NCBI GenBank assembly: GCA_937981555.1
Contig: CALJOK010000043.1
Coordinates: 62,001 to 126,000, forward strand
Length of the DNA: 64,000 nucleotides
Source: an uncultured Saprospiraceae bacterium
GTDB taxonomy: Bacteria; Bacteroidota; Bacteroidia; Chitinophagales; Saprospiraceae
Direction: 5' to 3'
A program made the position numbers and the translations under genes. A model generated the notes under the pieces. That model was not told the origin of the DNA, searched no databases, and saw nothing but the letters and a program-made list of their open reading frames with translations. Shown here one piece after another: positions 472 through 44,718 of the stretch; the first letter of the stretch is position 1, and every line of letters begins with the position of its first letter.

Positions 472-3400
472 TTATTCAAGAATAATCATTTTCTTAGTAT
501 CAATATGTTCAGCTGACTCTAGTTGATAATATAAAACGCCTGTTGAAGATAAATCGTTGCTTTGGATTCTTACTTCGTTGTATCCTTTAGCAAAATCACC
601 TTCAATAACTTTTAAAGTTCGACCAGAAATATCTGAAATAGTCATTGTTGCAAAACCAGCAACCGGTAAGTTGAAACTAATTAAAGTTTCTCCATTAAAC
701 GGATTTGGTCTATTTTGATGTAATTCAAAATCAGTAGCTGTAGTTACAGTAGGAGAGAAGAAAGCTAAACTTACTTCGCCAGTTGCTCCGCTCATTAATG
801 AACTTTGAGACTGAACTGTTCGTGAAGTAACGTCAATCAAACCACTCAATGCATCTGCATCATCTAAAGCTGTAAATTGAAGCGTAAATAATACGTCATC
901 AGAATTTACGGAATTAGGAGTTCCATACCAAACAGCTCCAATGATTCCTTCTTCTACTGCATTCAAACCTAATTTATTTTCTTCAAAACCTTCGATTACA
1001 CCTGGAACAATACCTTCGTAAGCCAAGTAGTTCTCGTCAAATTCTAAAGTAAATTGCCAAGCAATAAATGCCGCATAATCTTTTGCATAAACTGGAATTG
1101 AAATCAATTCGCCATTACTTACTTTTTGATTTTCAACACTCATCACAAAGTTTTCACCTGTTCGAGAGTCAACATCATTAGTCGTTAATGTACTTGTATT
1201 TAATGCTCCGAAAATTTGTCCAACTTTTACAGCAATCCAATCTACATTAGCCATTGGTAAAACCGCTGGATTATTATAAATGTTCTGCGCACTTGCAGGA
1301 ACTATAGGTGCAGATGGCTGTGAAGGTAATGAAATAGAAGGATCTAAATCATAAGGATCAAGAGTCATTTCGGCATAATCACGTTGGATAAATCTCCAAG
1401 GATTATATGCATCAATCACAGATGATGGAATTGGTGAAATTTCAGGGTTTACAATAACATCCTGAATCAATACCAAATCAAGTGTAGTAATAGTTCCACT
1501 TTGATTTACATCAGCTGCGATATAATCATAAATAGAATTAAGTGGAATATTATTCACAATATGCTGTTGAATAAAGAATAAGTCACTAGAGTTTACATCT
1601 CCATTGTTTAACCAGTTTGGATTGTTCTTTCTAGGAGTTAAGTCGATTGCAACTCCTCCTACAACATTAGCAACTTGAACAGAATAATCTCCATTCACAT
1701 CAGTCATATCAAAATCGGTAGTATCAGGATTATTCGAAATCAATGGCAATAATGTTTCGATTTTCACCATGCTTGCATTTTCTAATCCTTGACCAGCAAC
1801 TAAGATTACGGTATCTAAATTATATGTATAAGTATTAGGAGTAACCATAAAGTTAGTATCAATACTCATGGTATCAATTCTAGTTCTATTCCAAGTACTT
1901 ACATTTCCAGAAATAGGAAGTGTAGCGTTATCTCCAACTTCGAAAAAACCAATCGGAGCTACACATAGAGGTGGGGTGTCTTCCAAAATATCATTTCCAT
2001 ATTTTGTAGTCAACTCATTAGCATAAGGAGCACCTGTAATTGAAAAAGTTGTCATCTCTCCAACTACACCAAGAGCATTTAACCTAAAGTTAAATAATGG
2101 CATTCCATCAGGAATAGAAACCGGGTTAGGGGAAGTATTAAACCAAGAAACTGAAAGTACTTTTCCATCTGGACTTATTTGATTTGTAAATGTTCCATTA
2201 CAGATTAATGCTTGATTAATTCCACTTAAGTTAGGAACATTTACCGTTATCGCTCCACAAAGGTTTGGAGCATTATCTAGTGCAAAAGTGGCAACAGTTT
2301 CATCATCTACTTGCATACTGAATTGGAAACCAATTACATTTACAAAATTTGTAGAAGTGTAAGGTATTTCAACTTCGCCATTTGAAGTTACATCAGCTGA
2401 TGTAATACAAGTAGTTGGCGGTGTAACAATAAGAGTATTTGGCGTACAAGTCCCAACATTTCCATGAGCATCTGTTACTTGTAGAGTAGGAGTGATACCA
2501 TCTGAGATTGGGTGGGAACCAATATCATTAACATCAAAAGTAGTATTACCTGTCAATTCAATAGTAATAATATCTGAACAATCATCAATACCTCCATTTA
2601 GCATAGCAGTAGTTGCGGTAGCCATTCCATTTGCATCTAAAGAGATGATTAATGGGTCAACACAAGTAACAACAGGATTGTTATTATCTTGAATAGTAAT
2701 GGTCGTTTGACAGAAAGTAGTATCTGTGCTACCAGGAACTGATACTGCTAAAGTAATTGGAAAATCTTGAACCCCACCTGCTATTTGTGAGCAGTAGAAA
2801 ACATTAGGGAAAACATTCAAATCAACTACAGGAGAACAATTGTCAAAACTTCCGTTATTAATTAAAGCTATCAATGGATCATCTATTAAGATAGAATCTT
2901 GCCCATTTGGAATACCAACAATAATATTATGACATGCTGCAAATGGTGGAGAATCATCTACAACATCTACACTTACAGTATAAGAATCTGAATTTCCACA
3001 AGGATCAGTTACGGTAAAAGTAACTGGTGTAGATCCTACTGGATAAACTCCTGAAGCATCAGCATCACCTGTTCCATTTCCGTCATTTGTAATAGTAAGG
3101 TTAGCAAAAGATACACATCCCGGTAGATCTAAAACATCTGTTGCTGTCATTTCTAACGAAACGGTAGCATCACATGATCCAGCATTTGCATTTATTGTAA
3201 CAATACTTGGAAAATTAGTTGTTGCAAATATTGGAGCTTGAATATCTTGAACGGTAATTACTTGAGTTCCAGTTACTGAATTTCCACTTTGATCGGAAAC
3301 AGACCAGGTTCTTGTTAATTGATAGTTGTAAAAACCGCAAAGAGCTGGGTCTGTTAATCGAGTAGTCGTTTCGTTAAAAACAATTCCAATTGGATTACAA

Positions 3401-6400
3401 TTGTCACTAGCTGTTACTCCCGTTTCAACCGTTGGAATACTAATACAGTCAACTGTTACATCAGCAGGAATTCCAGAAAGAGTTGGATCAATATTATCTA
3501 CAATTGTAATTGATGCGTTGCAAGCTCCAGTATTACCATTGATGTCATTAGCCGTTACTGAAACAGTATTTGGTCCAAGGTCAGCGCAATCAAAATTAAC
3601 AATAGTATTTCCATTTGCTAATAGAGAACTGAAGTCAACACCACAATTATCAGTAATGTTAGGAGCATTGTATACCGCTTGAGGACCATTAGTTGTCCAA
3701 TTACTAAACGCTAAATCTCCAGTTAAACCACCTGGGAATGTAATGTTTGCAATTGAAAAGATAATAAAATCATTATCAAGTGTAATACAAAAAGTCTCTC
3801 CAGCCAATAGGGAAATACTTTCAGCTCCACTTTGACTTGAAGGACCAAATGGGTCTGTTAAAATAGTAGAAGTTCCATCAATAGAATATCTTAATTCATC
3901 AAAATCAGGTTCCTGTGTATAATTCCAATCAAAATCAAAATCAATATCGTTTGGAACAGTAATACAAAATTCAGAAGTATTCGATGGTCCAGTTCCAGTT
4001 CCTAAAGTAAATCCTTCTCCTAATAAATTACCTGCTGCTATTGAAGCTTCTCCATTTTCATCTAACTCCAATGTTAAAGAAAAACAGGTAAGGGAAGGAG
4101 GGATATTATCATCAGAAATATTAAATTGTTGTATTTGCTGTGAGCTATTTCCAAATCCATCATCATATACCCAGAAGATCGTATGATTTCCAACAGGAAT
4201 TTCATATTGAGGGATACTTCCTGGAGGAGGAGGAGTTGAGAAAGTCATTTCCCAAAAATTTAACCATCCACAATCTCCACCAGCATCGTCTCTAATACTT
4301 AGCGTCCATGTACCATCAGCATTTTCACCATCAAATGTACTTGCGAAAGTTCCTCCTTGTGCTTCAAATGTCCCATTGAATGGAGGGGAAGAAGCAGTTA
4401 TACTTGTTCCACCATCTTGGAAATTAGTACCTGAATAATTAACTCCAAAGGATCCATTATTATCTGATAATTTTAAAATGGTACCAGAGGGTGACACAAT
4501 AGAAATATCCAAATCACCAACCCAAGAATGGAAAAGATCCATACTAATATTTTCAATTACTCCTGTACCAGCTCCTAAAGTTCCAATTCCTGAAACATTA
4601 GTGGTGAAGGTATATGTTCCACTAGTAGATACTCCACAAGTTCCTGCAAGTGGACTATCATCTCCTAAAGATCCAACAGTACCTGAAAAGTCAGAAAATA
4701 CTGTAGCATTGGAACTACATACTCCTCCGATAAAATTAGCAGAAGTAGTAGGAGTTGGATTCCCACAAACAGTATTTCCACAAGCATCAAGTGCGGTTGG
4801 GGCATCTACGAAAACTGGTCCACAAGTTGAAGTTACGATTGGTAAAGTTCCGCCTGCAACAGTTGGAACAGGGGCACCATCTTGATTCAACACGATTTGG
4901 ATTTCACAAGTATCTGCAAAACCATTCGCATTATTATCTGTAGCAATGACTTCAATAATCAAAGTAGCTCCATCCGTTACTGCAATGTGACTACTTAGTA
5001 AATCGAATTGAGAAGGTTCTTGTGTTACAGTATTACTTCCTCCACAATTATCCGAAACTGTAGCCAACCCTCTTACATCGGGTACTAATAGTGATGCTGC
5101 ATTACAAGCTGCAAAATCCACCGTTTGTGGACCAACACAGGTAATAACTGGCGCTTCATCATCCAATACAGTTACCGTATAAGTAATAGAATTGGTATTT
5201 CCACAAGCATCTGAAAAGTTCATTGTAATATCATTAGGCCCAACAGGTAATATTGCAATAGGTGCAGTAGTTGGCGTAATAACAGCAATATTATTTCCTT
5301 TTCTATCAGTTGCAGTCGTTGAAACAAAAATGACAGTTCCACAATTATCAGTAACTGCTGGTACTGTTAAGTTTACAGTTTGAAAACATGTTCCTGCTGC
5401 GTTATTAATGTCATAATCTGCTACAACTGGAATTACTGGATCAGTCATATCTCCTCCAGAGTGAGTAATGGTTTCACCCGTTAAAGAATTTCCACAATCA
5501 TCAGTTACACTATAAGTATAGGTTACTGTCCAACTACAATCATTTCCTATTGAGTTAGTTCCTGTAAGTGTTGCAGTTACATTTCCACAATCGTCTGTAT
5601 AATTTGCTGCTGTTGTTGTCGCATTGAATGCAGGTGCATTAGCCAAACAATCGTTAACAGCTGTCATTCCAGCAGGTGCAGTACCAGTAGGTGCAACATT
5701 ATCGGTAAGTGTTATAGTTTGAGTAAAAGTACCACTCATATTTCCACATTCATCAGTTGCAATAAAAGTATTAGTATATGTTCCAGCATTTGGACACGCT
5801 CCCGCTACAAAAGTTCCAGCAGTTTCGGTAATTGTTATATTACCAGAAGTAGAACAATTATCAGTAGCTGATGGCATCATAGCTTGAGCAGTAACTAAGC
5901 CAGCTGCATCACTACATGCTAGCGTTACGTCAAGGTCACCAGCAGGATTTGTCCAAGTAGGAGCATTATTATCGGTAATAGTAATCACCTGGGTATATAC
6001 TACACTTGAATTAGTACATTCATCGAAAGCAATAAAAGTATTAGTATAAGTTCCTACATTTTGACAAGCGCCAGCATTAAATGTTCCTGCGGTTTTTGTA
6101 ATTGTAATATCACCAGTAGCGGAACAATTATCATTGGGTACAGGCTGTGCAGCTTGGGCAGCAGCTAAACCAGCAGCATCATTACAATCTAAAGCAACAC
6201 TTAAAGCGCCAGGAGCACTTACCCATGTCGGATCAGTATTATCTGTAATGGTAATGACTTGAGTGAAAAATGCACTATTTCCGCAAGCGTCAGTACCTGT
6301 AAATATATTGGTATAAGTTCCAGAATTAGGACATAATATATCTGGATTAAAAACTCCAGTAGTAGTTTTAGTAACGGTAACTGCTCCTCCGCAATTATCA

Positions 6401-7941
6401 GTAGCAGTAGGTGCTAATGCTTGAGCAGCAGCTAAGCCAGCAGTATTACTACATTCTAAAGAAGTATTAAGAGCAGTAGCTCCTGTAGTGAAAGTAGGTA
6501 TGGTTTGATCGCTTCCTGAGTGAGTAATCGTTTGACCACTCAAAGTATTACCACAATCATCTGCAATACTAAAGGTATAAGTTACCGACCATAGGCAATC
6601 GGTTCCTGATGGAGTAGTACCTGTTAAAGTAGCTGTTGCATTATTGCAATCATCTGAATATCCAGCTGCTGCTGCAATTGCATTGAATGCAGGAACAGCG
6701 GTTAATGCATTAGTTGCACAAGCGTTGATACCTGTAGTTCCAGTTGGTGAAGTTCCAGTAGGTGCATCTGTATCACTTCCACTTATAATCCAAGTTTCAC
6801 TACCTAAAGTGTTTCCACAAGCATCTGATACATTATAAGTATAAGTTACATCCCAATTACAATCATCTCCTGAATCAACAGTTGAAGTAAGTGAAATGGA
6901 TGCAGCATTTATTGTACTACAATTATCTGTATATCCCGTAGCAACTGTTGCGGGGACAAATGGATAATTAGTGGTTACATACGTTAAGGCATCGGTACGG
7001 CAAACACTTTCTGTTGAAGGGATATTTATAGAGGCTGGTTCTGACCCAGATGGAATAGTATTATCATTTACAGTAATTGTAACAGTAAAATCATCAGAAT
7101 TGCCACAATTATCAGTAGCTCTATAAACAACTGTTCTGACAAAATTATTTACACAAGAACCAGCTACAGTATTGTCTGAGAAGATTGCAATAGTTGGAGT
7201 ACCTCCACAATTATCAGTAGCGGTAGGAGCGACTAAAGTTACATCAGCAGCACATTGTTCATTAATATCTAAAGAACCTACAGCCTCCACAAAAAGAGGA
7301 TCTGTATTATCATTCACAGTAACAGTAACTGTAAAATCAGATGTATTACTACAATCATCAGTAGCTCTATAAACAACTGTTCTGACAAAATTATTCACAC
7401 AAGAACCAGCTACAGTATTATCTGAAAAAATTGCAATAGTTGGAGTACCTCCACAATTATCAGTAGCGGTAGGAGCGACTAAAGTTACATCAGCAGCACA
7501 TTGTTCATTAATGTCTAATGTTCCAGCACCTTCAACAAATGTAGGACCAGTTGCATCTCCAGTAATATTTACAGATACATCACAAAAACCGATACCACCA
7601 AGATTACATAAAGGATCAGCATCTCCATGTAAAACTCGAACTACCACGGCGACTCCTGCTCCAGAGCAAACTGGTGTTGTTGGAGGAACTATATAGGATG
7701 CACTACCTCCTGTTACAGGAGTACATAATGCCGCCGTTACAGCTGCTTCAGCCATAGCGAAGGCATCTGATTCACATTCGACAGCTATTGCTCCTGGACA
7801 TTGCGAATAACCTTGAAATGAAAAAATAGTAACAAAAGCCACTAAAGCAGTAAGCTTTTTTAAATGTCTTAATTTAGAAAGAAAAAGTAATTCTGCACTT
7901 AATCTATCTGCATTGTTTTGGGAGTAAATTCTAGGAACCAT
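472..7941 (-). CDS. Giant secreted HYR-like repeat adhesin with P-domain, cohesin-like and dockerin-like segments and T9SS C-terminal sorting domain
   Basis: 2489 aa; many 'DNCG..xxVTITDNxxP' repeats; P-domain-like segment (IENISMDLFHSWVGDLDISIVSPSGT...DGTWTLSIRDDAGGDCGWL); dockerin-like 'GDVNSSDLFFIQQHI...ADVNQSGTITTLDLVLIQDVI'; C-terminus 'NRPNPFNGETLISFNLPVAGFATMTISDISGR'. Confidence 0.9.
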   Translation of the reverse strand: MVPRIYSQNNADRLSAELLFLSKLRHLKKLTALVAFVTIFSFQGYSQCPGAIAVECESDAFAMAEAAVTAALCTPVTGGSASYIVPPTTPVCSGAGVAVVVRVLHGDADPLCNLGGIGFCDVSVNITGDATGPTFVEGAGTLDINEQCAADVTLVAPTATDNCGGTPTIAIFSDNTVAGSCVNNFVRTVVYRATDDCSNTSDFTVTVTVNDNTDPLFVEAVGSLDINEQCAADVTLVAPTATDNCGGTPTIAIFSDNTVAGSCVNNFVRTVVYRATDNCGNSDDFTVTITVNDNTIPSGSEPASINIPSTESVCRTDALTYVTTNYPFVPATVATGYTDNCSTINAASISLTSTVDSGDDCNWDVTYTYNVSDACGNTLGSETWIISGSDTDAPTGTSPTGTTGINACATNALTAVPAFNAIAAAAGYSDDCNNATATLTGTTPSGTDCLWSVTYTFSIADDCGNTLSGQTITHSGSDQTIPTFTTGATALNTSLECSNTAGLAAAQALAPTATDNCGGAVTVTKTTTGVFNPDILCPNSGTYTNIFTGTDACGNSAFFTQVITITDNTDPTWVSAPGALSVALDCNDAAGLAAAQAAQPVPNDNCSATGDITITKTAGTFNAGACQNVGTYTNTFIAFDECTNSSVVYTQVITITDNNAPTWTNPAGDLDVTLACSDAAGLVTAQAMMPSATDNCSTSGNITITETAGTFVAGACPNAGTYTNTFIATDECGNMSGTFTQTITLTDNVAPTGTAPAGMTAVNDCLANAPAFNATTTAANYTDDCGNVTATLTGTNSIGNDCSWTVTYTYSVTDDCGNSLTGETITHSGGDMTDPVIPVVADYDINNAAGTCFQTVNLTVPAVTDNCGTVIFVSTTATDRKGNNIAVITPTTAPIAILPVGPNDITMNFSDACGNTNSITYTVTVLDDEAPVITCVGPQTVDFAACNAASLLVPDVRGLATVSDNCGGSNTVTQEPSQFDLLSSHIAVTDGATLIIEVIATDNNANGFADTCEIQIVLNQDGAPVPTVAGGTLPIVTSTCGPVFVDAPTALDACGNTVCGNPTPTTSANFIGGVCSSNATVFSDFSGTVGSLGDDSPLAGTCGVSTSGTYTFTTNVSGIGTLGAGTGVIENISMDLFHSWVGDLDISIVSPSGTILKLSDNNGSFGVNYSGTNFQDGGTSITASSPPFNGTFEAQGGTFASTFDGENADGTWTLSIRDDAGGDCGWLNFWEMTFSTPPPPGSIPQYEIPVGNHTIFWVYDDGFGNSSQQIQQFNISDDNIPPSLTCFSLTLELDENGEASIAAGNLLGEGFTLGTGTGPSNTSEFCITVPNDIDFDFDWNYTQEPDFDELRYSIDGTSTILTDPFGPSSQSGAESISLLAGETFCITLDNDFIIFSIANITFPGGLTGDLAFSNWTTNGPQAVYNAPNITDNCGVDFSSLLANGNTIVNFDCADLGPNTVSVTANDINGNTGACNASITIVDNIDPTLSGIPADVTVDCISIPTVETGVTASDNCNPIGIVFNETTTRLTDPALCGFYNYQLTRTWSVSDQSGNSVTGTQVITVQDIQAPIFATTNFPSIVTINANAGSCDATVSLEMTATDVLDLPGCVSFANLTITNDGNGTGDADASGVYPVGSTPVTFTVTDPCGNSDSYTVSVDVVDDSPPFAACHNIIVGIPNGQDSILIDDPLIALINNGSFDNCSPVVDLNVFPNVFYCSQIAGGVQDFPITLAVSVPGSTDTTFCQTTITIQDNNNPVVTCVDPLIISLDANGMATATTAMLNGGIDDCSDIITIELTGNTTFDVNDIGSHPISDGITPTLQVTDAHGNVGTCTPNTLIVTPPTTCITSADVTSNGEVEIPYTSTNFVNVIGFQFSMQVDDETVATFALDNAPNLCGAITVNVPNLSGINQALICNGTFTNQISPDGKVLSVSWFNTSPNPVSIPDGMPLFNFRLNALGVVGEMTTFSITGAPYANELTTKYGNDILEDTPPLCVAPIGFFEVGDNATLPISGNVSTWNRTRIDTMSIDTNFMVTPNTYTYNLDTVILVAGQGLENASMVKIETLLPLISNNPDTTDFDMTDVNGDYSVQVANVVGGVAIDLTPRKNNPNWLNNGDVNSSDLFFIQQHIVNNIPLNSIYDYIAADVNQSGTITTLDLVLIQDVIVNPEISPIPSSVIDAYNPWRFIQRDYAEMTLDPYDLDPSISLPSQPSAPIVPASAQNIYNNPAVLPMANVDWIAVKVGQIFGALNTSTLTTNDVDSRTGENFVMSVENQKVSNGELISIPVYAKDYAAFIAWQFTLEFDENYLAYEGIVPGVIEGFEENKLGLNAVEEGIIGAVWYGTPNSVNSDDVLFTLQFTALDDADALSGLIDVTSRTVQSQSSLMSGATGEVSLAFFSPTVTTATDFELHQNRPNPFNGETLISFNLPVAGFATMTISDISGRTLKVIEGDFAKGYNEVRIQSNDLSSTGVLYYQLESAEHIDTKKMIILE
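7110..7521. repeat. Tandem near-identical ~246-bp (82-aa) duplication inside the adhesin gene
   Basis: 'tcagtagctctataaacaactgttctgacaaaatta...' starts at 7112 and again at 7358; the two copies differ by only a few substitutions. Confidence 0.9.
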
Positions 7942-20470: not shown

Positions 20471-23400
20471 TTACTTTCTCTTCGAAGCAGGAATCAATCG
20501 ATTTCGTACACTCGGAGTCATTCCTGCATAAACCAACAATAAAAATTCTTCACTCGTAATATTCACCGCATTGATAAAATTTGTTCTAAAATCTGTCAAT
20601 GCATTTTGACTATCATAACCTCTGACTACGAGGTTGTGAATTGCTTTCGTTTTTGGTTTTCCAAAATCCAGAATAACTCTAATTGGAATTGGATTTTCAT
20701 ATGGCATATGAAATAAATGAATGCCTTCTTCTCCTTTTAAAAAACTAAAAAGGGAATATCCTTCGAGTTGAATAAATTGCTTTTCTTTATCCACTTCTTT
20801 TTCCAAATGAAGATAATCAAAAAGGTTGTTGTACAATTTAAAAAGATATTCAATTTGTTCCTGTCCTGAATTATGAATGACACTTTCAAATCGAAGGGTC
20901 ACTTTTTGTAATTGATTTTTAATGAAGTTTTTTGAAAAAAGTTTGAGCATCGCCACTTCCAAAAAGCTATTTAAAAATTCGGTTTGAAGTGTATTATATT
21001 GAATGTTGGTTCGATTATAAATTTCACTTATTTCAGCCAAACCTTCTTGCTGGAAAAATAAATCTTTATAGTTTTCTTTTAAAATTTTATCAGAATTACT
21101 CCAAATGGTATTTCGCTTCAATCGCAGAGGAATAGCAGGATCAAGGTGAAATTTTTTATCTCTAAACCCTAGCGACAAATGTAGAATTCGTTCTTTCGTT
21201 TCCGCAATTTTTTCCTTAAAACTATAATGGTGACTCTTGGAATAATCGACGATTGCATGATCTTCCGAGTCATCACTTTCCATTCGTTGAATTTGTTTTT
21301 CGATGGTTTCTAAAATTCGATTGATGCGAAGGTAAAATCCTTTTCCTTTTTCTGCTTCGGGTAATTCAGGAAACCAACTTTCCTCTAAAGGCGCTACAAA
21401 TTGAAGAGGAGAAATCTTGGGGACGAGTTGATTTTTAACCAAAGAAATTTCAAATAAAATCGGACTAGTCGAATAATTACTCACCAATTGTGCAGCAGTC
21501 AAAGCAGTCAAATCTTTTTCAATTTGTCGCTTTAAAGCACGTCCACCCATGCGAGAATTAAAACCTCGACGAGCGACCCATTCCAATGCATCTACTTCGA
21601 TATTTAAAATAGTTGTTCTTCGAACAAATCCATCACGTGATAATAAATCCTTAATCTGCAGTCGAGCGATGCCTAAAATGTGTTGTATTTCAAGTGAATT
21701 AAAAATAACGATTTCATCAATTCGATTGACAAATTCAGGACGAAATTTATCTTCCACGGCCTTGCGATAAATCGCTCCATCATCTTGGCTGGAAGTTTTA
21801 AAACCTGCTTGTGAAGAAACTTGATTCGCTCCAATATTTGAAGTCATGATGATAATGATATTGGAAAAATCAATTGTACGACCAAGGCTATCTGTCAATC
21901 GAGCATCATCCAAAAGTTGAAGTAACAAGTCCAAAACTTTAGGATGTGCTTTTTCAATTTCATCCAACAAGACCACTCCAAAAGGTTGATACCTAACCTT
22001 GCCAGTCAGTTGACCTTCTGGATTTTGAGCATCTCCGATCAGCCTTTGCACGGCAGTATGATCGATGAATTCATTCATGTCAAATTGCATCAAAGTCGAT
22101 TCGCTTCCTGTTAGGAATTTTGATAGAACTTTGGCAGCTTGTGTTTTGCCAACACCCGTTGGCCCAATAAACATAAAGGATCCAAGCGGTTTATTAGGAG
22201 TTGTCAATCTTGCCTTGATCGTATGAATTACATTCGATAAAGTAGCAACTGCCTTTGGTTGCCCGACTAAATCGTGACTAATTTTTTGATAAAAATCTTC
22301 TTCTTCATTAGAAATCGGTAGGTTGAAAATATCTTGATTAAGTCCGCTAAATGTTTCAAATTCAGCTCGCACTTCAGGAACATCAATTCTTTGACCTCGA
22401 TGTTTTACGGCGAGTTGACGCATGATATTTATGATACTGCCTGGAAGTGATTTTCGTTTTAAATAATTTCTTTGGAAATCAAAAAGTGACTGAATGGCTT
22501 TTATTGAAAAAGTGCAATTATGAGAGTTTTCTAAAATCTTTCGATTTTCGAGCGCCATTTTCACAGCATTTTTTAGGTCAGGTTCATCCATCCTGATCAT
22601 CTGAAAAAGGTCTGCATAGCGTCGATCTTTTTCTTGAATAATTTTCCATTCTTCGGGAGTAGCAAGGATGACTAGCTGAATTGATCTTTTTTCTAAATAT
22701 GGTTTGAGGACATCATTGACCGTCATATTATTTTGAGCTGACTTTCCAATGTTTAACATCGCGACTGCATTATCGATCAAAATAATATCAGAACTTTTAT
22801 TTTTTTGATATGGATTTTTGATAAAATTTAAAACGGCTTCCATCCTTTTTTGCCACATTCCTACAATGCTCATTCCCGTAATAATTCGGGTGGGATCGAT
22901 ATGCCAAATGGTTCGAGATTTTTTGTTGAACTCCTCGATGTGTTGAAATAAAGTTTCGTGAATAATACTTTTTTTCCCAACTCCTTCTTTTCCAACTATG
23001 GCAATTGGCGTATTTTTAAATGGCTGATCAAACAAAAGACTTTCCAATCTTTCCACCATCTCTTCCTTATAGAAGGCTCGATTTAAATCATTAGGAAAAC
23101 TATTATTTAGATTTTTAGAAATTTTCCAAACTTCATTTTCACCATCCATTTTCGTATCAGCAGAAAACCGATCAATAAATGAATTTTGATTTTGATAGAC
23201 AAATGAAAAACTATCATGAGCTGCTTGAATCGGAATTTCAACAGAGGTTACAAACTCTTTTTCAGGAGAGGTATAATTATTAAAATCAAATTCACTTGGT
23301 TCGTTCGAGTGATATTTTTTTAATAATCGACTAATTACTTTGGTAGCTTGTTGTTCAAGGTTGAATCTACTTTTTTTATTCTTTTCAACGACATACATTG

Positions 23401-23764
23401 TACCATTGAAATGTGGTAAAGAGGCGAATGTGATGTTATGTAATTCGAAGAAGGCAATTCCAAATCTTCCTTGCTGATCTTTTTTTCCAGGAATAGGAAT
23501 AGTCAGGTTAAAAATTTGATAATCAATCGTTGGATTAAACCTGAACCAAATTAGATCATCTAGCGTAATACTTTCTAAAACATACCCTTTTACCGCATTT
23601 TGAATAGCCGATTTCATTTTGGAGACTGAACCTTCAAAACGAGGATGAGCATAACTCGAAAAACTAAAGAAAAGTGGAGTAGATTGATACTGCTCTTTTT
23701 CTTCATTTTTGATGAGGCTGACAAGTGCTGGAAATTCTAAATTTAATTGGACGGTGTTATTCAT
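20471..23764 (-). CDS. Divergent Clp-like double AAA+ ATPase with long C-terminal extension
   Basis: D2: FMFIGPTGVGKTQAAKVL, VVLLDEIEKAHPKVLDLLLQLLDDARLTDSLGRTIDFSNIIIIMTSNIGA, PEFVNRIDEIVIF; D1 variant motifs GKEGVGKKS and IILIDNAV; ~300-aa C-terminal extension beyond the ClpB_D2-small region. Confidence 0.88.
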   Translation of the reverse strand: MNNTVQLNLEFPALVSLIKNEEKEQYQSTPLFFSFSSYAHPRFEGSVSKMKSAIQNAVKGYVLESITLDDLIWFRFNPTIDYQIFNLTIPIPGKKDQQGRFGIAFFELHNITFASLPHFNGTMYVVEKNKKSRFNLEQQATKVISRLLKKYHSNEPSEFDFNNYTSPEKEFVTSVEIPIQAAHDSFSFVYQNQNSFIDRFSADTKMDGENEVWKISKNLNNSFPNDLNRAFYKEEMVERLESLLFDQPFKNTPIAIVGKEGVGKKSIIHETLFQHIEEFNKKSRTIWHIDPTRIITGMSIVGMWQKRMEAVLNFIKNPYQKNKSSDIILIDNAVAMLNIGKSAQNNMTVNDVLKPYLEKRSIQLVILATPEEWKIIQEKDRRYADLFQMIRMDEPDLKNAVKMALENRKILENSHNCTFSIKAIQSLFDFQRNYLKRKSLPGSIINIMRQLAVKHRGQRIDVPEVRAEFETFSGLNQDIFNLPISNEEEDFYQKISHDLVGQPKAVATLSNVIHTIKARLTTPNKPLGSFMFIGPTGVGKTQAAKVLSKFLTGSESTLMQFDMNEFIDHTAVQRLIGDAQNPEGQLTGKVRYQPFGVVLLDEIEKAHPKVLDLLLQLLDDARLTDSLGRTIDFSNIIIIMTSNIGANQVSSQAGFKTSSQDDGAIYRKAVEDKFRPEFVNRIDEIVIFNSLEIQHILGIARLQIKDLLSRDGFVRRTTILNIEVDALEWVARRGFNSRMGGRALKRQIEKDLTALTAAQLVSNYSTSPILFEISLVKNQLVPKISPLQFVAPLEESWFPELPEAEKGKGFYLRINRILETIEKQIQRMESDDSEDHAIVDYSKSHHYSFKEKIAETKERILHLSLGFRDKKFHLDPAIPLRLKRNTIWSNSDKILKENYKDLFFQQEGLAEISEIYNRTNIQYNTLQTEFLNSFLEVAMLKLFSKNFIKNQLQKVTLRFESVIHNSGQEQIEYLFKLYNNLFDYLHLEKEVDKEKQFIQLEGYSLFSFLKGEEGIHLFHMPYENPIPIRVILDFGKPKTKAIHNLVVRGYDSQNALTDFRTNFINAVNITSEEFLLLVYAGMTPSVRNRLIPASKRK

Positions 23765-24198: not shown

Positions 24199-26835
24199 AT
24201 GGGCGAAAGTTATAAATATCCGAAATCAGATAATTTTAAGTTTAGAGAACTTAAAGTATATGCTTCGACTGAGTGGTTGGCTGATAACAAAAAGAAATAT
24301 CGGCAAGTGTTTGACCGCTTTGAAATTTCGTATGTATATGCTGAATTATCTTTTCATAATAAAATGTATGATGAGGAGGATTGGGAAATAGATGTAGAGT
24401 TGAAATGTTTTTCTTTGAAAAAAGGCCGCAAGGAATTGTGTTCTTTACCTTTTAAGCGAAAGGTGAGTAAATATGATCCGACGGTTTTTATTCGAGAAGG
24501 TTGGGGGAATAAAAAGGAAGGCGTTTTTTGGAAAAAAGGAACTTATTATTGGGAAGCTTGGGTAGAAGGGGAAAAAGTGGCGACCAAATATTTCTACGTC
24601 GAAGATGCTGGAACGGAGGATTTTGATGGGACAAGTGGATACTTGAGTGTGAAATCACTCAAACTTTATGAAGGACCTTACGATGATGTTACGGATGATG
24701 ATCGAGTTTACTTAAAAACGTTTAGTAGTGAAGAGACTCGGTATATTTATGTTGAAATTTTATTGAAAAATGAGCACATCGACAAAAATTGGCAATGCGA
24801 ATTATATACCAAATTTTACAATAATGCGCGTGAATTAAAAGGTCAAGTCGTGCGACTGCAACGGGTTGAAAAGAAAGATGGGTTTATAAAAATGACTGCG
24901 GGTTGGGGATCAAATGTTAAAGGTTCTTGGCGAAGAGATTTGTACACCGCAGATTTAATTTTTATGGATCGATTGATTGCTACGATTCCGTTTGAGATTG
25001 ATGATGATTTTGAAGAAGGAATAACTGGAGTATTTTTACCGAATCAACAAGCTCCGGTAATTTTAGCGAACGAGGTCGAACAAGGGCAAACATTTGATGA
25101 GGTCATGTTAAAAATGGATAATTTAATTGGCTTGACTGAAATCAAACAACGAGTTCGAGATCATGCTCAATATATTCAGTTTTTACAATTGAGGAAAGAA
25201 AAAGGATTTGAAGAAAAAGAAGACATCAATGTTCATTCTGTCTTCGTTGGAAATCCTGGAACTGGAAAAACGACCGTCGCAAAAATGATGGGACAGTTGT
25301 ATAAAAAAATGGGGTTGTTGACCAAAGGACATGTGCATGAAGTGGATCGAGTTGATCTAGTGGGAGAATATATTGGACAAACAGCTCCCAAAGTAAAAGA
25401 GGCGATTGAGAAAGCAAGAGGTGGAGTTTTGTTTATTGACGAAGCTTATTCTTTGGCTCGCTCGAATGATGACAGCAAAGATTTTGGAAGAGAAGTGATT
25501 GAAATTTTGGTTAGAGAAATGTCAAATGGAAAAGGAGACATGGCAGTTATTGTTGCTGGGTATCCTAAAGAAATGAAACATTTTATGGATTCGAATCCAG
25601 GGTTGAAATCTCGATTTAAAATAAACTTTGAATTTACAGATTACTTGCCACAAGAGCTTTCACGGATTGCAGAATTTGCAAGTGTAGAAAAAGGAATCAA
25701 GTTTACGCAAGAAGCAAAAATCAAAATTGATGAGTTAATTACGAATGCATTTCGGAATCGAGATAAAACTTTTGGAAACGCGCGTTTCGTTTATGATTTG
25801 ATTGAAGAAGGGAAAATTAACCTTGGATTGCGAGTAATGGATGGTGCAAATCCAAGAGGGTTGGATAATGACCAATTGTCGATTGTTGAATTGAAAGATG
25901 TAGCCAATATTGAAGTAGAAAAGAAAAGAGAGATACCATATATACCTATTGATAAAAATTTATTAGAGGAAGCAATGGATGAATTGAATAATTTGATAGG
26001 TATGGAATCTATCAAAGTTCAAATTCAAGAGATGGTTCAGTTGGTTAAATATTTTAGAGAAACTGGAAAAGATGTATTGAAGTCATTTTCATTACATACT
26101 ATTTTTGTTGGAAATCCAGGAACAGGTAAAACCACAGTTGCGAGAATTTTGACAAAAATATATAAAGCATTGGGCGTATTGGAAAGAGGTAAAATGGTGG
26201 AAACTGATCGTCAAGGTTTGGTGGCAGGATTTGTTGGACAAACAGCCATCAAAACTGCAGAACAGATTGACGAAGCAATGGGTGGCGTACTTTTTATCGA
26301 TGAAGCTTATGCCTTAACTGCTAAAACTGGCGGTGCTCATGGAGACTTTGGTGATGAAGCGATTCAAACTATTCTTAAAAGAATGGAAGACAATCGAGGC
26401 GAATTTTTTGTCTTTGCTGCAGGTTACCCAGACAATATGGAAAATTTCTTAAAAGCTAATCCAGGATTGAATTCTCGTTTTGATAAAACGCTAAAATTCG
26501 AAGATTACTCTCCTAAGGATTTAAAGAAAATTGCTAAAATGATGCTCCTCGAGCAAGGGGTAAAAATGTCGGAAGATGCTTCCGCTCATTTGGATAAATA
26601 CCTTAATTTCTTGTATGAGTTCCGAGATAAATATTTTGGAAATGCACGTGATGTTAGAAAAGTAGTTGTTGAAGCAGTCAAAAATATGAATCTAAGGTTG
26701 GCTGAAATTCCAGAGAAGGATCGAAAGGAAAATGAAGAAATGATTCTTACATTTGAAGATGTCCGAAAATTTAAATTAGATACGAATGACTTTACTTTTA
26801 ATAAAAAGAAAATAGGATTCGGTAGGAATAAATAA
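24199..26835 (+). CDS. Tandem CbbX/SpoVK-type AAA+ protein with duplicated N-terminal beta-rich module
   Basis: Two AAA domains: VFVGNPGTGKTTVAKMMG...GGVLFIDEAYSLA and IFVGNPGTGKTTVARILTK...GGVLFIDEAYALT; two N-terminal related units ending EGWGNKKEGVFW.. and AGWGSNVKGSWR.. Confidence 0.92.
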   Translation: MGESYKYPKSDNFKFRELKVYASTEWLADNKKKYRQVFDRFEISYVYAELSFHNKMYDEEDWEIDVELKCFSLKKGRKELCSLPFKRKVSKYDPTVFIREGWGNKKEGVFWKKGTYYWEAWVEGEKVATKYFYVEDAGTEDFDGTSGYLSVKSLKLYEGPYDDVTDDDRVYLKTFSSEETRYIYVEILLKNEHIDKNWQCELYTKFYNNARELKGQVVRLQRVEKKDGFIKMTAGWGSNVKGSWRRDLYTADLIFMDRLIATIPFEIDDDFEEGITGVFLPNQQAPVILANEVEQGQTFDEVMLKMDNLIGLTEIKQRVRDHAQYIQFLQLRKEKGFEEKEDINVHSVFVGNPGTGKTTVAKMMGQLYKKMGLLTKGHVHEVDRVDLVGEYIGQTAPKVKEAIEKARGGVLFIDEAYSLARSNDDSKDFGREVIEILVREMSNGKGDMAVIVAGYPKEMKHFMDSNPGLKSRFKINFEFTDYLPQELSRIAEFASVEKGIKFTQEAKIKIDELITNAFRNRDKTFGNARFVYDLIEEGKINLGLRVMDGANPRGLDNDQLSIVELKDVANIEVEKKREIPYIPIDKNLLEEAMDELNNLIGMESIKVQIQEMVQLVKYFRETGKDVLKSFSLHTIFVGNPGTGKTTVARILTKIYKALGVLERGKMVETDRQGLVAGFVGQTAIKTAEQIDEAMGGVLFIDEAYALTAKTGGAHGDFGDEAIQTILKRMEDNRGEFFVFAAGYPDNMENFLKANPGLNSRFDKTLKFEDYSPKDLKKIAKMMLLEQGVKMSEDASAHLDKYLNFLYEFRDKYFGNARDVRKVVVEAVKNMNLRLAEIPEKDRKENEEMILTFEDVRKFKLDTNDFTFNKKKIGFGRNK

Positions 26836-36501: not shown

Positions 36502-37203
36502 ATGTTAAAAAATCTCAAAAAGTGGTTTGTTGTAGACGATGAAGAATTTAAAGACAAGATGTCTGGAGGTAGTGCAGATGATTCTGATATTGTTCCCGAA
36601 CAAAAAACAAAATCCACTTCAACTCCAAGGTCAACTTCGTCCCCTTCTAGTACAAGTTCCACCTCTAGTTCAACAGTCCCTTCAGGGAAATCGAGCCCAA
36701 AATTTACCAATATTTTATTGCAAGCGATGGAAGCGAACAATTTGGATGGATTTGATTATTTAGAATATAAACACAGTTTGCACAACTTGGCAAAGATGCC
36801 AATGGATGAACAAACTCGTTACCAATCTGCTTATGCAGCTGCTTCGACGATGGGAGCAACTCCAGCTAAGTTAGTCAAGACCGCTCACTTTTATATTGAT
36901 GTTTTGAAAAAAGAAGAAGCGAAATTTGCGCAAGCATTAGCGAATCAAAAAGACAAGCAGATCGGAGATAAGTCTCAATTGATTCAGCAGCATGATAATT
37001 TGGTCAAAGAAAAAACCAAACAAATTGAGCAACTCAAAAAAGAAATTGCGCAGCATCAAGCGAAAAGTGAACAAATGAAAAAGAGTATTTCTTCTGCAAC
37101 GGTAAAAGTAGAAACTACTAAAAATAATTTTGTAGCCTCTTATAATCTCGTACTTTCGCAGATTAATAGAGATATTGAAAATATGAAAAAATACCTTAAA
37201 TAA
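36502..37203 (+). CDS. Hypothetical coiled-coil protein with Ser/Thr-rich linker
   Basis: TKSTSTPRSTSSPSSTSSTSSS linker; C-terminal KEKTKQIEQLKKEIAQHQAKSEQMKKSISSATVKVETTKNNF coiled coil; starts the SBP-OmpA cluster. Confidence 0.75.
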   Translation: MLKNLKKWFVVDDEEFKDKMSGGSADDSDIVPEQKTKSTSTPRSTSSPSSTSSTSSSTVPSGKSSPKFTNILLQAMEANNLDGFDYLEYKHSLHNLAKMPMDEQTRYQSAYAAASTMGATPAKLVKTAHFYIDVLKKEEAKFAQALANQKDKQIGDKSQLIQQHDNLVKEKTKQIEQLKKEIAQHQAKSEQMKKSISSATVKVETTKNNFVASYNLVLSQINRDIENMKKYLK

Positions 37204-37293
37204 TGGTGGACTTTTAACGGTTAACTGTGAATGGTTAACGGTTAATAATGTTTCTCAGGATTCTTTTAAAATAAATTAATCAAAATATTAAAA

Positions 37294-38319
37294 ATGGAAA
37301 TGCAAGATTTTAAACCAAAATCATTTTGGAAAAAACCGGAAGGGGTGACTGGGGCAGTTTTTTTAACTGCGATACTTGGTGGACTAGGATATTTGATTGC
37401 AACGAATACAGCTCTTATCGCTGGGTTGTTTGCAAATACAATTACGTTAGTTGCCACACTTGCAGTTTTAGGAGCAGTAATTTATATGGTGCTTGATCCT
37501 AAAATGCGAAACCTAGTTTGGTACATGTACAAAAGTGTGATGCGATCCATAACTGGTATGTTTGTGCAGATTGATCCGATTGGAATTTTGAAATCATACA
37601 CAGATGATTTGGGTGATAATTTGGGGAAAATGAATAAGCAAATTGGAAAACTCAAAGGTCAAATGCATAAACTCAAAGAGTTGATTGTCAATAACCAAAA
37701 AGAGATTAAAAACAATTTGACCCAAGCGAGCAAAGCCAAAGAAGTCAACAAAAAGAATATCATGATTCTTAAATCTCGAAAAGCGGGACGATTAAAAGAA
37801 TCAAATATGCGATTGGAAGATTTGTACAAAAAAATGGAAGTCTTATACCGAGTGTTGACTAAGATGTATGAAAATTCTGAAATCCTTTTGGAAGATGTGA
37901 AAGATCAAGTGATGGTCAAAGAGCAAGAATACAAAGCGATCAAAGCAAGTGCTTCTGCGATGAAATCTGCAGCAAGTGTGATTTCTGGAAATCCAGATAA
38001 GCGAGCAATGTTTGATATGGCGATGGAAGCAGTAGCTGACGATGTAAGTAATAAGGTAGGGGAGATGGAAAGATTTATGGAAATGTCTTCCAACTTTATG
38101 GACTCTGTAGATTTGCAAAATGGAGTTTTTGAAGAGGAAGGAATGAAGATGTTGGAGAAATGGGAGAAAGAAGGAATTTCTAAAATCTTAGGAGAAGAAA
38201 AATCAATACTCGTCAACCAAGCAAATAGTGATGATGATGTATTGGACTTAAATGAACCAATCGCAAAACCAATGCGAGAATCAGGTCATCAAAATCAATA
38301 TGATTCGCTTTTTGATTAG
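37294..38319 (+). CDS. Membrane-anchored coiled-coil protein (PspA/IM30-like in character)
   Basis: Two N-terminal TM helices (VTGAVFLTAILGGLGYLIAT; LFANTITLVATLAVLGAVIYMVL), then a ~200-aa helical coiled coil. Confidence 0.75.
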   Translation: MEMQDFKPKSFWKKPEGVTGAVFLTAILGGLGYLIATNTALIAGLFANTITLVATLAVLGAVIYMVLDPKMRNLVWYMYKSVMRSITGMFVQIDPIGILKSYTDDLGDNLGKMNKQIGKLKGQMHKLKELIVNNQKEIKNNLTQASKAKEVNKKNIMILKSRKAGRLKESNMRLEDLYKKMEVLYRVLTKMYENSEILLEDVKDQVMVKEQEYKAIKASASAMKSAASVISGNPDKRAMFDMAMEAVADDVSNKVGEMERFMEMSSNFMDSVDLQNGVFEEEGMKMLEKWEKEGISKILGEEKSILVNQANSDDDVLDLNEPIAKPMRESGHQNQYDSLFD

Positions 38320-38334
38320 TACTTAACTTCGTAG

Positions 38335-38372
38335 TAGGTATCGGATAGCTTTAAGTTATCCGATACCTATTT
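38335..38372. terminator. Palindromic hairpin, 'AGGTATCGGAT' family copy 2
   Basis: taggtatcggatagctttaagttatccgatacctatttt. Confidence 0.7.
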
Positions 38373-38453
38373 TAAAATAAAGGGGTAGCAAAAGGTTATC
38401 ACTTAATTACCGAACAAATTTTTTTAATAACATAATCATACAATTAAAACAAC

Positions 38454-40040
38454 ATGGCAAGGAAACTCACCACATTTTCAAAATTATTAATAGTTCTAGT
38501 AATCGTCGCAATTCTTTTCTTTGGAATTACTTATTTGAGAGATAATGGATTCTTGGGAGATATGGGACAAGAGAATACAGAACAAGCAGATAATACAGGA
38601 TCCAGCACAAGTCCAAGTTCAACTAGTTCTAATTCAGGAAGTAGTTCATCAAAAGATGTGATCAAAGTCGGAGTAGTAACTTGGGGAGGATATGCAGGTG
38701 GACAATATTTTAACGAAGGATTTGAAGCATCTAAAAAATCTCGATTTTATAAAGACTATGGCTTTGAAGTAGAATTTAAAGTTTTAGATGATTTTGATGC
38801 TTCTCGGAATGCCTTCAAATCTGGAGACGTAGATTTACTTTGGGCAACTATTGATGCCTTCCCAACTGAGGTTGGTGGATTGTCTGATTTCGATCCAGTT
38901 GTCGTTTTTCAAGCAGATTGGTCTAGAGGAGGTGATGCAATTGTAGCTCGAAGAGGAATTACAAGTGTAGCAGATTTGAAAGGTAAAAAAATCGCAGTAG
39001 CGGAAATGACACCATCTCACTCATTTTTGATTTGGTTGATGGAAGCAGGTGGATTAACTGTAAACGATGTTGAAATTTTAGGACAACCAAGTGCAATTGA
39101 TGCAGCAGAAGTTTTTAAAAGTGGTCGATGTGATGCAGCGGTAGTTTGGAGTCCAGATGATATTTTGAGTTTGAAAGCAGTACCTGGAAGTAGAGTTTTA
39201 GAGAGTTCAAGATCAGCGGCATATATTATAGCAGATGTATTCTTTGCTAAAAGAGCATTCGTTGATGCGAACAAAGAAAAAGTTCGTCAGTTATACGAAG
39301 GTTGGATGAAAGGTGCAGCTGAAATTAATTCTAATACAAATTCTAGAAAAAAAGCAGCGGCTATTTTATCTGAAGAATTTACAGAAAGAGGAACTCCGTT
39401 GACTCCTGAAGAAGCTGATGAAATGATTGGAAATGTTCGATTAGCGACTCATGGTGATAACAAAAACTTCTTCCGATTGAATAGTGATTATAAAGGTATA
39501 GCAGGAGATGATTTGTATCGAAACATGACAGATAAGTATACTGACTTAAAATATATCGAAGGTCGTGTTCCAGCGTGGAGACAAATAGCTTATCCATCAT
39601 TGGTAAGTTCCACCACTTTAACTGATCCAGCCAACTTTGCTGAAAAAGCTAAAAACTATACCAAAGCAACAAAGGCAGAAGAAACTAAAACTGCCTTGGC
39701 GACCAAAGCTGTTAGTATCTCTTTCCGAACTGGAGAATTTCGATTAGATGATAATGCGAAATATATTATTGACAAAGAGTTTGTTGACATTGCAAAAGTC
39801 TTTAACTCTAGAATTCGAATCGAAGGAAATACGGATAATGTAGGAGGCGTTGCTAGTAACAAAGCACTTTCATTAAAACGAGCAAATGCGGTAGCTGACT
39901 ATTTAGTTACAGAGCACGGAATGCCTCGTAATCGTTTTGTCATTGTTGGAAATGGACCAAACAAACCTGTGGCAACTAATGATACAGATAAAGGTCGAGC
40001 GAAAAATAGAAGAACTGATTTTGAATTACTCGCGGAGTAA
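38454..40040 (+). CDS. Inner-membrane-anchored ABC substrate-binding protein (SsuA/TauA/NMT1-like) fused to C-terminal OmpA domain
   Basis: N-terminal TM; Ser-rich linker; VGVVTWGGYAGGQYFNEGFEASKKSRFYKDYGFEVEFKVLDDFDASRNAFKSGDVDLLWATID; OmpA: RIEGNTDNVGGVASNKALSLKRANAVADYLVTEHGMPRNRFVIVGNGPNKPVATNDTDKGRAKNRRTDF. Confidence 0.92.
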   Translation: MARKLTTFSKLLIVLVIVAILFFGITYLRDNGFLGDMGQENTEQADNTGSSTSPSSTSSNSGSSSSKDVIKVGVVTWGGYAGGQYFNEGFEASKKSRFYKDYGFEVEFKVLDDFDASRNAFKSGDVDLLWATIDAFPTEVGGLSDFDPVVVFQADWSRGGDAIVARRGITSVADLKGKKIAVAEMTPSHSFLIWLMEAGGLTVNDVEILGQPSAIDAAEVFKSGRCDAAVVWSPDDILSLKAVPGSRVLESSRSAAYIIADVFFAKRAFVDANKEKVRQLYEGWMKGAAEINSNTNSRKKAAAILSEEFTERGTPLTPEEADEMIGNVRLATHGDNKNFFRLNSDYKGIAGDDLYRNMTDKYTDLKYIEGRVPAWRQIAYPSLVSSTTLTDPANFAEKAKNYTKATKAEETKTALATKAVSISFRTGEFRLDDNAKYIIDKEFVDIAKVFNSRIRIEGNTDNVGGVASNKALSLKRANAVADYLVTEHGMPRNRFVIVGNGPNKPVATNDTDKGRAKNRRTDFELLAE

Positions 40041-40054
40041 AAACTAAACAGACC

Positions 40055-40092
40055 TAGCGGTGTTAGCGTTTTAGGCGCTAACACCGCTTACT
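40055..40092. terminator. Hairpin, 'GTGTTAGCGC...GCGCTAACAC' family
   Basis: tagcggtgttagcgttttaggcgctaacaccgctta. Confidence 0.7.
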
Positions 40093-40108
40093 TTTTATAA
40101 AAAATAAT

Positions 40109-41227
40109 ATGGAATTATTCAAACTCCGTGGTGATCTTAGTCGTTCAAATAGTCTTATTTTAGGACTAGTTGGATTTGTAATATTAATTATCGTTTGGTG
40201 GGCAGTTGCAGAAATGCTTTCTATTAAACGTCCAGTTATTGAAGGTTTTGATACGCGATTAGAATCTTCAATTGGAAAAGATCCCGCAGTTCATAAATTA
40301 TATTTAGATTCGATTGCAAAAGTAGATTCAATCAATTTTGCCAATGCAACTGAGTTTGAAAAAGTCTATCCATTATTTCCCACACCACTTCAAGTCGTTC
40401 AATCATTTCCAGAACTGATCAAAAAAGATGAGTTAGTACAGCAAACAGGAAGATCACTTTGGCTCAATATTCAAGGATATTTTTGGGCGATTTTCATTGC
40501 CGTTCCACTTGGATTTTTGATTGGGTTGTTTCCACTTTTTAGAGGATTGTTTAGTAAGCAGGTTGATGCGATGCGATTTTTACCGTTGACGGCTTTGACT
40601 GGGTTGTTTATTATTTGGTTTGGAATTGAAGATCAAATGAAGATTGCTTTCTTGGCATTTGGTATTTTAGTTTACCTTTTGCCTGTTGTGTCGCAACGAG
40701 TTTTTGAAGTGGCAGATGTTTATTTAAAAACTGTTTTTACACTTGGTGCTACAGATTGGCAAACGATTAAGACTGTTTATTTTCCTTCAGTCATGTCTAA
40801 ATTGATGGATGATATTCGAGTGCTGACTGCGATTTCTTGGACTTATATTATTATTGCAGAGTTGCTAAATCGGCAAGGTGGAATCGGTTCGTTGATGTAC
40901 ATCAAGGCTCGACAAGGGCAAATCGAAAAAGTATTTGCAGGACTAATCGTCATCATTATTATTGGATTTTTGCAAGATCGAATTTTCCAATTTATAGATA
41001 AAAGAATTTTCCCACATAAATATTCTAGCACTCAACCAACGGGATTAAAAGAATCTCAATCAGGAATACTTTTAGTTTTAGGAGGTGTTTTATTTGCGTT
41101 GTTGTTGCAAGTGATTTTGCCAAATGCGGGTTGGATTATGGGATCGTTGTTGCCGGTGATTTTGATTGGGGGAGTGTTGTTTGTTTTATATGGGGAGTTT
41201 AAGATTGCGCAGAATACTAAAGCTTAG
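40109..41227 (+). CDS. ABC transporter permease (SsuC/TauC type)
   Basis: VQQTGRSLWLNIQGYFWAIFIAVPLGFLIGLF; RFLPLTALTGLFIIWFGI; FTLGATDWQTIKTVYFPSVMSKLMDDIRVLTAISWTYIIIAELL. Confidence 0.92.
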   Translation: MELFKLRGDLSRSNSLILGLVGFVILIIVWWAVAEMLSIKRPVIEGFDTRLESSIGKDPAVHKLYLDSIAKVDSINFANATEFEKVYPLFPTPLQVVQSFPELIKKDELVQQTGRSLWLNIQGYFWAIFIAVPLGFLIGLFPLFRGLFSKQVDAMRFLPLTALTGLFIIWFGIEDQMKIAFLAFGILVYLLPVVSQRVFEVADVYLKTVFTLGATDWQTIKTVYFPSVMSKLMDDIRVLTAISWTYIIIAELLNRQGGIGSLMYIKARQGQIEKVFAGLIVIIIIGFLQDRIFQFIDKRIFPHKYSSTQPTGLKESQSGILLVLGGVLFALLLQVILPNAGWIMGSLLPVILIGGVLFVLYGEFKIAQNTKA

Positions 41228-41239
41228 AAATAGAAAATT

Positions 41240-41842
41240 ATGAAATGGAAAACAAGCACAATAATTACTATTTTAATTTTTTCCATTGGAGTCGTTGTGT
41301 TTACTCAATACGAAAAGAAAAATAAGATTTCAGTTTTAGAAGATACAATGGATGACAGGGTTGAGGAAAGAGTGATTTTTGAGAAAACAGAATTAAATAG
41401 AAAATATGAAACTCGGATTAAGAGTTGTGAAGAACTTAATCAAGCACAGCAAGAAGAAATTAATGAATTAAAAGAGCAAATTAAATTTATTCGAAATGGA
41501 GGCGAAAACGAATATTACATAAAGCAATTAAAATTAAATTCTAAAAAGGTTTTAGAAAAAATTAAAATAAGAAAAGGAGAAGTTTATAAACATGAGAAAT
41601 CTGGAATAGTAGTTTATGTAAGAAGAGATTTTTATGAAGACCAAATTTACCTAAATATTACTTTACCAAATGAACAAACTCAAGAAAAAGATTGGTTAAC
41701 GGGCAAGTATTACTATTATTGGAATTCTCAGGAAAATGAACTTAGCGAAATAATTCCAACTTTCATTGGAGATGAATTTATTGAAATAGAATGGACTTAT
41801 TATAAAGCAAATCAAGGTACAATAGGTGACTCAATTAAATAA
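41240..41842 (+). CDS. Hypothetical single-TM coiled-coil protein
   Basis: N-terminal TM STIITILIFSIGVVVFTQY, then helical region; lies between permease and ATPase genes. Confidence 0.6.
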   Translation: MKWKTSTIITILIFSIGVVVFTQYEKKNKISVLEDTMDDRVEERVIFEKTELNRKYETRIKSCEELNQAQQEEINELKEQIKFIRNGGENEYYIKQLKLNSKKVLEKIKIRKGEVYKHEKSGIVVYVRRDFYEDQIYLNITLPNEQTQEKDWLTGKYYYYWNSQENELSEIIPTFIGDEFIEIEWTYYKANQGTIGDSIK

Positions 41843-41853
41843 AAAAAATAAGA

Positions 41854-44349: not shown

Positions 44350-44718
44350 CTAGAGTAATTTTTTTAAGACACGCATTAGATTTTGTTCTAGCAAACTAAA
44401 TTCGCCATCTGCCATGAATTCTTTTTTCATCAAGTCTAATAATTCATTAGTCCTGTCAGCAGTTGGGAAATATAAACCTTTGTAGGACAGGATTAAATTA
44501 ATCTTATTAATGTCAGACATGGAATGATATTCCTTCCAAATTTCTTCGTAGGTTTCTTCATTTACTTTTTGCAAAATTGCTTCCTTTTCTTCAGAAGTAA
44601 CTTTCAAATCTGCTGATGCAGCATAGAGCATTAGAAATGCTGAAAATTCTTGGAAATTCCACTTTGGGTGATCATTCATGTGTGTTTGTTTTTTTGTAAA
44701 AGTAAATATTTTTTCCAA
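44350..44718 (-). CDS. TerB-like small helical protein
   Basis: FLMLYAASADLKVTSEEKEAILQKV...MKKEFMADGEFSLLEQNLMRVLKKLL: paired 'aDgxxxxxExxxi' signatures typical of TerB-like folds. Confidence 0.6.
   Translation of the reverse strand: MEKIFTFTKKQTHMNDHPKWNFQEFSAFLMLYAASADLKVTSEEKEAILQKVNEETYEEIWKEYHSMSDINKINLILSYKGLYFPTADRTNELLDLMKKEFMADGEFSLLEQNLMRVLKKLL

Follow-up and report, generated by a model that had tools for sequence, protein, structure and literature searches.

The stretch of DNA analysed here (64,000 bp, hereafter the window) belongs to contig C43 of a 7.25-Mb genome (label G000) from an uncultured member of the Saprospiraceae. Its minus strand was found to encode a large protein of the AAA+ type, designated A, the layout of which is given in Table 1 along with its divergent neighbour and two paralogues, B and C, encoded on other contigs of the genome. 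Homologues of A of ~1100 aa were identified in 73 of 199 genomes of the family, and relatives with a GTDB name belong for the most part to the Saprospiraceae, Phaeodactylibacter among them; the alignment of the A family (A3) was built from 80 homologues.

Table 1. Protein A, its parts, its divergent neighbour and its paralogues (window positions, unless genome and contig are given).
Feature	Position	Strand	Description	Basis or remark
Protein A	20471..23764	minus	1097-aa HSP100/Clp-type AAA+ protein, release-factor-like C-terminus	ORF list
A, N-terminal domain	23210..23764	minus	aa 1-185, alpha/beta	AlphaFold2 pLDDT 84, pTM 0.71
A, AAA+ D1	22355..23083	minus	aa 228-470, probably non-hydrolysing	Walker A/B motifs in homologues
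A, AAA+ D2	21470..22306	minus	aa 487-765, ATPase motifs intact	Conservation in 74 homologues
A, shortened D2 pore loop	22004..22045	minus	RLIGDAQNPEGQLT vs RLIGAPPGYVGYEEGGQLT in ClpB/ClpC	Aligned with ClpB and ClpC of the same genome
A, helical region	20921..21355	minus	aa 804-948, at the position of release-factor domain 1	AlphaFold2 helices and end-to-end RF2 alignment; weak on its own
A, release-factor domain-2-like (PCRF) segment	20666..20908	minus	aa 953-1033; segment of the original prediction	Foldseek; hhalign with nulls
A, second release-factor block	20495..20632	minus	aa 1045-1090, post-GGQ, IRxY..TDxR	R, D, R invariant in family; aligned to release-factor IRTYNFPQxRVTDHRI
Tandem AAA protein (CbxX/SpoVK type)	24199..26835	plus	878 aa, long N-terminal region	Commonest divergent neighbour of A
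Protein B	G000:C35:9522-12764		1081 aa, release-factor-like	Same unusual AAA+ features
Protein C	G000:C18:3440-5704		755 aa, without release-factor tail	Same unusual AAA+ features

The tandem AAA gene adjoins that of A in ~30 of the 56 loci with enough upstream sequence and is a core gene, being present in 188 of the 199 family genomes; its product is probably not part of the A system. A shared function of A with this gene or with an ABC/OmpA cluster at 36502-42657 was considered and rejected, since both are core genes (188/199) and their proximity carries little information. The cluster encodes two coiled-coil proteins (the second being the one found in 188/199 genomes), an NMT1-like substrate-binding protein fused to an OmpA peptidoglycan-binding domain, a permease, a small protein and an ABC ATPase, relatives of which lie near A at eight loci. 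Elsewhere in the window, positions 472-7941 encode a protein of 2489 aa which is probably secreted and in which similar repeats of the TDNCGGTPTI / VTDDCGN type recur many times, and three small proteins (44350-44718, 48486-48875 and 50354-50845), two of them with sub-threshold TerB similarity, are encoded around a 1130-aa WG-type-repeat protein (44983-48375).

AAA+ Architecture of Protein A

The original prediction, made from the sequence alone, had called A Clp-like, which is correct, with matches to Pfam AAA_2 (1.6e-48), ClpB_D2-small (4.8e-8) and other generic AAA models. Like ClpB, ClpA and ClpC, and as expected of the HSP100/Clp group, the protein has two AAA+ modules, the D2 motifs of a ClpB-type D2 and a D2-small domain. 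However, it scores far below the cut-offs of the NCBIfam ClpA and ClpB models (324 vs 993 bits for ClpA), lacks a Clp_N match and a middle domain, and has an N-terminal domain of its own, for which Foldseek against the PDB gave no clear structural relative (none at E ≤ 0.001, best E 0.11).

The motifs of D2 (GPTGVGKT, LLDEIEK, the arginine finger and the sensor 2 GGRALKR) are invariant or nearly so across 74 homologues. In D1 the Walker B motif reads D-N, Asn replacing Glu in 73 of the 74, and the residue following the Walker A Lys is usually His or Lys. This loss of the Walker B Glu and the altered Walker A suggest that D1 probably does not hydrolyse ATP. The ordinary ClpC (G000:C1; L004) and ClpB (G000:C50; L005, L007) of the host, which served as an internal comparison, have intact GYVGY pore loops, whereas that of D2 in A has been lost through a five-residue deletion, making classical threading doubtful. 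Most members of the A family carry an [LIV]GF-like tripeptide in D2 (AGF in the window member), placed in a loop of ClpB length and lacking the longer insertion of ClpC; binding of ClpP by A is unsupported at the sequence level.

The Release-Factor-Like C-Terminus

At positions 20471-20910, corresponding to the last ~146 aa of A, the original prediction had recognised a segment resembling the PCRF domain of release factors but without a GGQ motif, and the peptide which it quoted represents aa 955-1030 (window 20675-20902, minus strand). Both observations were borne out, the first by the profile comparison described below. The first block of the segment, I..EGYGL..LL.GE.GIHLFY, matches IEIKGDFVYGLLKGENGVHRL of RF2, and just downstream of it lies a second block, VVRGYDSQNALTDFRT, which the original prediction had not named and whose consensus VIRxYDxxxTLTDLRTGF resembles the release-factor IRTYNFPQxRVTDHRIG. 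A remote orthologue of A in another family (35% identical) keeps both blocks (LEGPGLLDLFQQEVGVHLL ... IRLYTFED ... NVTDLRTGM). The two are separated by 19 aa in the A family (median of 74 sequences) vs 114 aa in release factors, a difference which corresponds in length to the absent GGQ domain. Since the catalytic domain of bacterial release factors is an insertion in the codon-recognition domain (Burroughs and Aravind, PMC6514570), a clean loss of it is plausible. GGQ triplets in the A family are few, scattered and unconserved, and no GGQ catalytic domain was found. The stop-codon tripeptide PxT or SPF is likewise absent in A, its position reading HLFYxxHxNPxPI, as is the Arg which follows the conserved His. 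With a median net charge of -3, the module cannot be called basic.

No match to Pfam PCRF was obtained for A, the best value among its relatives (E 0.011) being below threshold, and PCRF was the Pfam family most often matched by members of the C-terminal alignment (3/36 and 5/81). A PF03462 search of the host genome recovered only its two true release factors, encoded elsewhere, and the C-terminus of A gave no significant release-factor match against Pfam, NCBIfam or PDB sequences. When this C-terminus was compared by hhalign with a full release-factor profile, the score of 25.2 (P 0.024) lay inside the null. The GGQ domain was then deleted from the alignment of 59 release-factor sequences and the comparison repeated, giving a local score of 36.2 over 71 columns (null maximum 23.2, with 0 of 60 block shuffles as high). 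End to end, the GGQ-deleted RF2 aligned over 238 columns (P 5.9e-5) with a score of 26.2 (null maximum 14.7). This deletion was picked after the sequences had been read and the signal of A depends on it, with paralogue B serving as the independent check. The profile search for PCRF proposed with the original prediction gave, in sum, a divided answer, with no Pfam match at threshold but a clear profile-profile score once GGQ was removed. A weak C-terminal match in another family (G263) was identified as HisC and set aside as chance.

The structural comparison with release factors, also proposed at the outset, turned out favourably. The AlphaFold2 model of the C-terminus is confident (pLDDT 85.7, pTM 0.87), and among 350,542 PDB chains searched with Foldseek the first eight places were all taken by release-factor or termination-complex chains (probabilities 0.84-1.0; E from 7.6e-5 to 7.9e-3), followed by an unrelated ninth match (E 0.56). 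Global TM-scores against the release factors are low (0.20-0.29), which indicates that the domain packing differs and that the likeness is to parts and not to one rigid body. After the helices, the elements of the model run strand-helix-strand-strand-helix-strand-strand, with a further three strands and a final pair of helices, which is the order expected of release-factor domain 2/4 without domain 3. The predicted fold is that of domain 2/4 in the sense of homology, not of function, and the tail, made up of the last ~290 aa of A, corresponds to the domain 1 + 2/4 core of a release factor without the inserted GGQ domain and without stop-codon motifs.

On the basis of (i) the fold match, (ii) the controlled profile-profile comparison and (iii) the independent evidence from paralogue B, the homology with release factors is held with high confidence, even if the Pfam threshold for PCRF was not reached. 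The tail is most likely descended from RF2 with loss of the peptide-cutting part. RF2 (prfB) is the best fit for A and B, B retaining the RF2-type FW..A signature, and the likeness to RF2/RF1 takes in the position of the helical domain 1, the strand-helix order of domain 2/4, the E-x-G-[IV]-H core and the IRxY...TDxR block. In contrast to RF1 and RF2, A has no GGQ domain, PxT/SPF codon-recognition tripeptide or HTS, and carries its module fused behind a double AAA+ protein.

Paralogues B and C and Their Distribution

The survey of homologues and their genome context, the third check proposed originally, revealed a set of three ATPases which had been invisible in the window. The D1 Walker B motif, D-N in A, reads R-N in B and mostly [VE]-D in C, the canonical Asp-Glu occurring in none of them; the D2 pore loop, shortened in B and C as well, has GYVGY in none of the three, and the D2 ATPase is intact in all of them. 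The C-terminal profile of B scored 37.4 against GGQ-deleted RF2 (maximum of 40 nulls, 27.3) and aligned over the full extent of RF2, and PCRF heads the Pfam list of B, although tied (2/31). B also possesses an invariant FW followed by an Ala, as in RF2 domain 1 (LEIKGDLCYFYLQGEEGFQKW in a remote B), and the C-termini of A and B align end to end (P 9.2e-6). As judged from these sequence comparisons, B confirms the release-factor link independently of A.

Of the 199 genomes of the family, 73 carry A, 76 carry B and 71 carry C, with all three in 68; B is present in every genome with A (73/73) and in every genome with C. The Fisher P for co-occurrence is as low as 2e-51, a statistic which ignores phylogeny, and joint presence or absence within several genera is for that reason the stronger argument, six genera holding both system-positive and system-negative genomes. 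In the genus of the window, genome G078 lacks A, B and C altogether, and at its syntenic locus A is simply missing from the place between the ferredoxin gene and that of the tandem AAA protein. Among 365 genomes of the class, the only one outside the family to have A is G495, where the genes for B, a Schlafen AlbA_2 protein (SLFN_AlbA_2), A and C stand in tandem on one strand as an operon, the orthologues being alignable along almost their entire length and identical at 32% over 1141 columns (A), 36% over 1060 (B) and 44% over 757 (C). A Septu PtuA-PtuB pair lies directly upstream of this operon on the same strand (L323:15868-18079; PADLOC E 4e-135 and 1.5e-83). In the family of the window, the three genes are mostly unlinked, A and B lying within ~40 kb of each other in G093, G098, G099, G057 and G152. 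No widely recurring neighbours of B or C were found in the family, no translation gene was found as a conserved neighbour at the A, B or C loci, and plasmids and phages gave no match. That A, B and C constitute a three-part system, gained and lost together, is considered very likely.

Proposed Function and Alternatives

Protein A looks like an HSP100 protein with an RF2-derived, GGQ-less tail, within an apparently undescribed three-ATPase system. A search for a PCRF or release-factor-like domain coupled with Clp, HSP100 or AAA+ returned nothing relevant in the open-access literature, most subscription papers and all preprints being outside its scope, and Clp fusions are unmentioned in PMC6514570. 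Eukaryotic quality control, in which the release-factor-like Vms1/ANKZF1 works with the AAA+ remodeller Cdc48, and Dom34/Pelota, a catalytically inactive release-factor relative in ribosome rescue, offer functional analogies only; these are separate polypeptides from an unrelated release-factor superfamily (aeRF1), whereas A is one polypeptide.

We infer that A, B and C would be HSP100-derived subunits of a single heteromeric, ATP-driven remodelling machine, in which D1 would form a nucleotide-binding ring without hydrolysis and D2 would supply the motor. A ring without canonical pore loops may alter its shape instead of threading polypeptide, and the tails which A and B derive from a release factor would act as docking domains, most likely on the A-site region of ribosomes that are stalled or vacant. 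This proposal of a heteromeric, non-threading machine docked most likely on ribosomes is put forward tentatively, as falling a little short of probable when taken as a whole, and the choice of the ribosome as docking target is itself a tentative one. The layout retained from release factors is that of the part which occupies the small subunit's decoding region, and its preservation in the tails makes the ribosome the leading candidate target. With the catalytic domain gone, the outcome cannot be peptide release of the release-factor type, and the loss of the codon-recognition residues and of net positive charge makes a pure scaffold role nearly as likely. In its most specific form, the proposal would be that a three-subunit AAA+ machine exists in the Saprospiraceae, and in one or more further families of the class, two subunits of which place catalytically dead RF2-derived modules on the ribosomal A site, with ATP hydrolysis clearing, remodelling or sensing stalled ribosomes without peptide release, as a bacterial counterpart to the pairing of a release-factor relative with Cdc48; this is possible, though not probable.

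A real possibility, again short of probable, is that the module is release-factor-derived but repurposed, serving as an oligomerisation or protein-binding domain within a three-ATPase complex off the ribosome. The loss of GGQ and, in A, of the stop-codon motifs would agree with this, as would the non-basic charge, the strong divergence of the C-termini of A and B from each other and from release factors, and the lack of a conserved translation-gene neighbour. However, the domain 1 + 2/4 layout has been kept in two paralogues, and A retains the E-x-G-x-H core and the IRxY..TDxR block, which is beyond the needs of a bare scaffold.

The original prediction had instead envisaged a Clp-like unfoldase with a ribosome-associated or translation quality-control role. 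Spelled out, a Clp-type unfoldase, possibly with ClpP, would reach stalled ribosomes through the module and extract or degrade nascent chains. The Clp-type D1-D2 architecture and the [LIV]GF-like tripeptide in D2 of most members fit this version, but the term unfoldase is doubtful for a protein whose D1 lacks the Walker B Glu, whose D2 lacks GYVGY and whose GF-bearing loop (AGF in the window) is without the ClpC-type insertion, and this version is regarded as unlikely. A biological-conflict system (anti-phage or abortive-infection), with the ATPase set sensing the state of translation, is similarly improbable. The patchy distribution of the set, which comes and goes as a whole, and the G495 operon with its Schlafen protein and adjoining Septu pair would suit such a role. 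However, this is a single operon, in the family of the window the genes lie dispersed, with housekeeping genes around them, phages and plasmids gave no match, and the PADLOC matches of A, B and C (Dodola DolB and PDC-M37B, with which a Clp-like AAA domain is shared) involve the generic AAA part only, with no defence-type partner genes beside them in that family. That the release-factor resemblance is due to convergence or chance is highly improbable, as the absence of a Pfam match at threshold and the low global TM-scores are outweighed by eight top structural matches that are all release factors followed by a sharp gap, nulls that never scored as high (0/60), the agreement of paralogue B in the same register, and a missing stretch which coincides with one domain.

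The strict co-occurrence of A, B and C provides a ready test, with natural positive and negative genomes in one genus. Should the modules have kept their ability to dock on ribosomes, the system would represent a new bacterial route of ATP-driven ribosome remodelling; if they have not, it would clearly exemplify the reuse of a translation factor as a scaffold.
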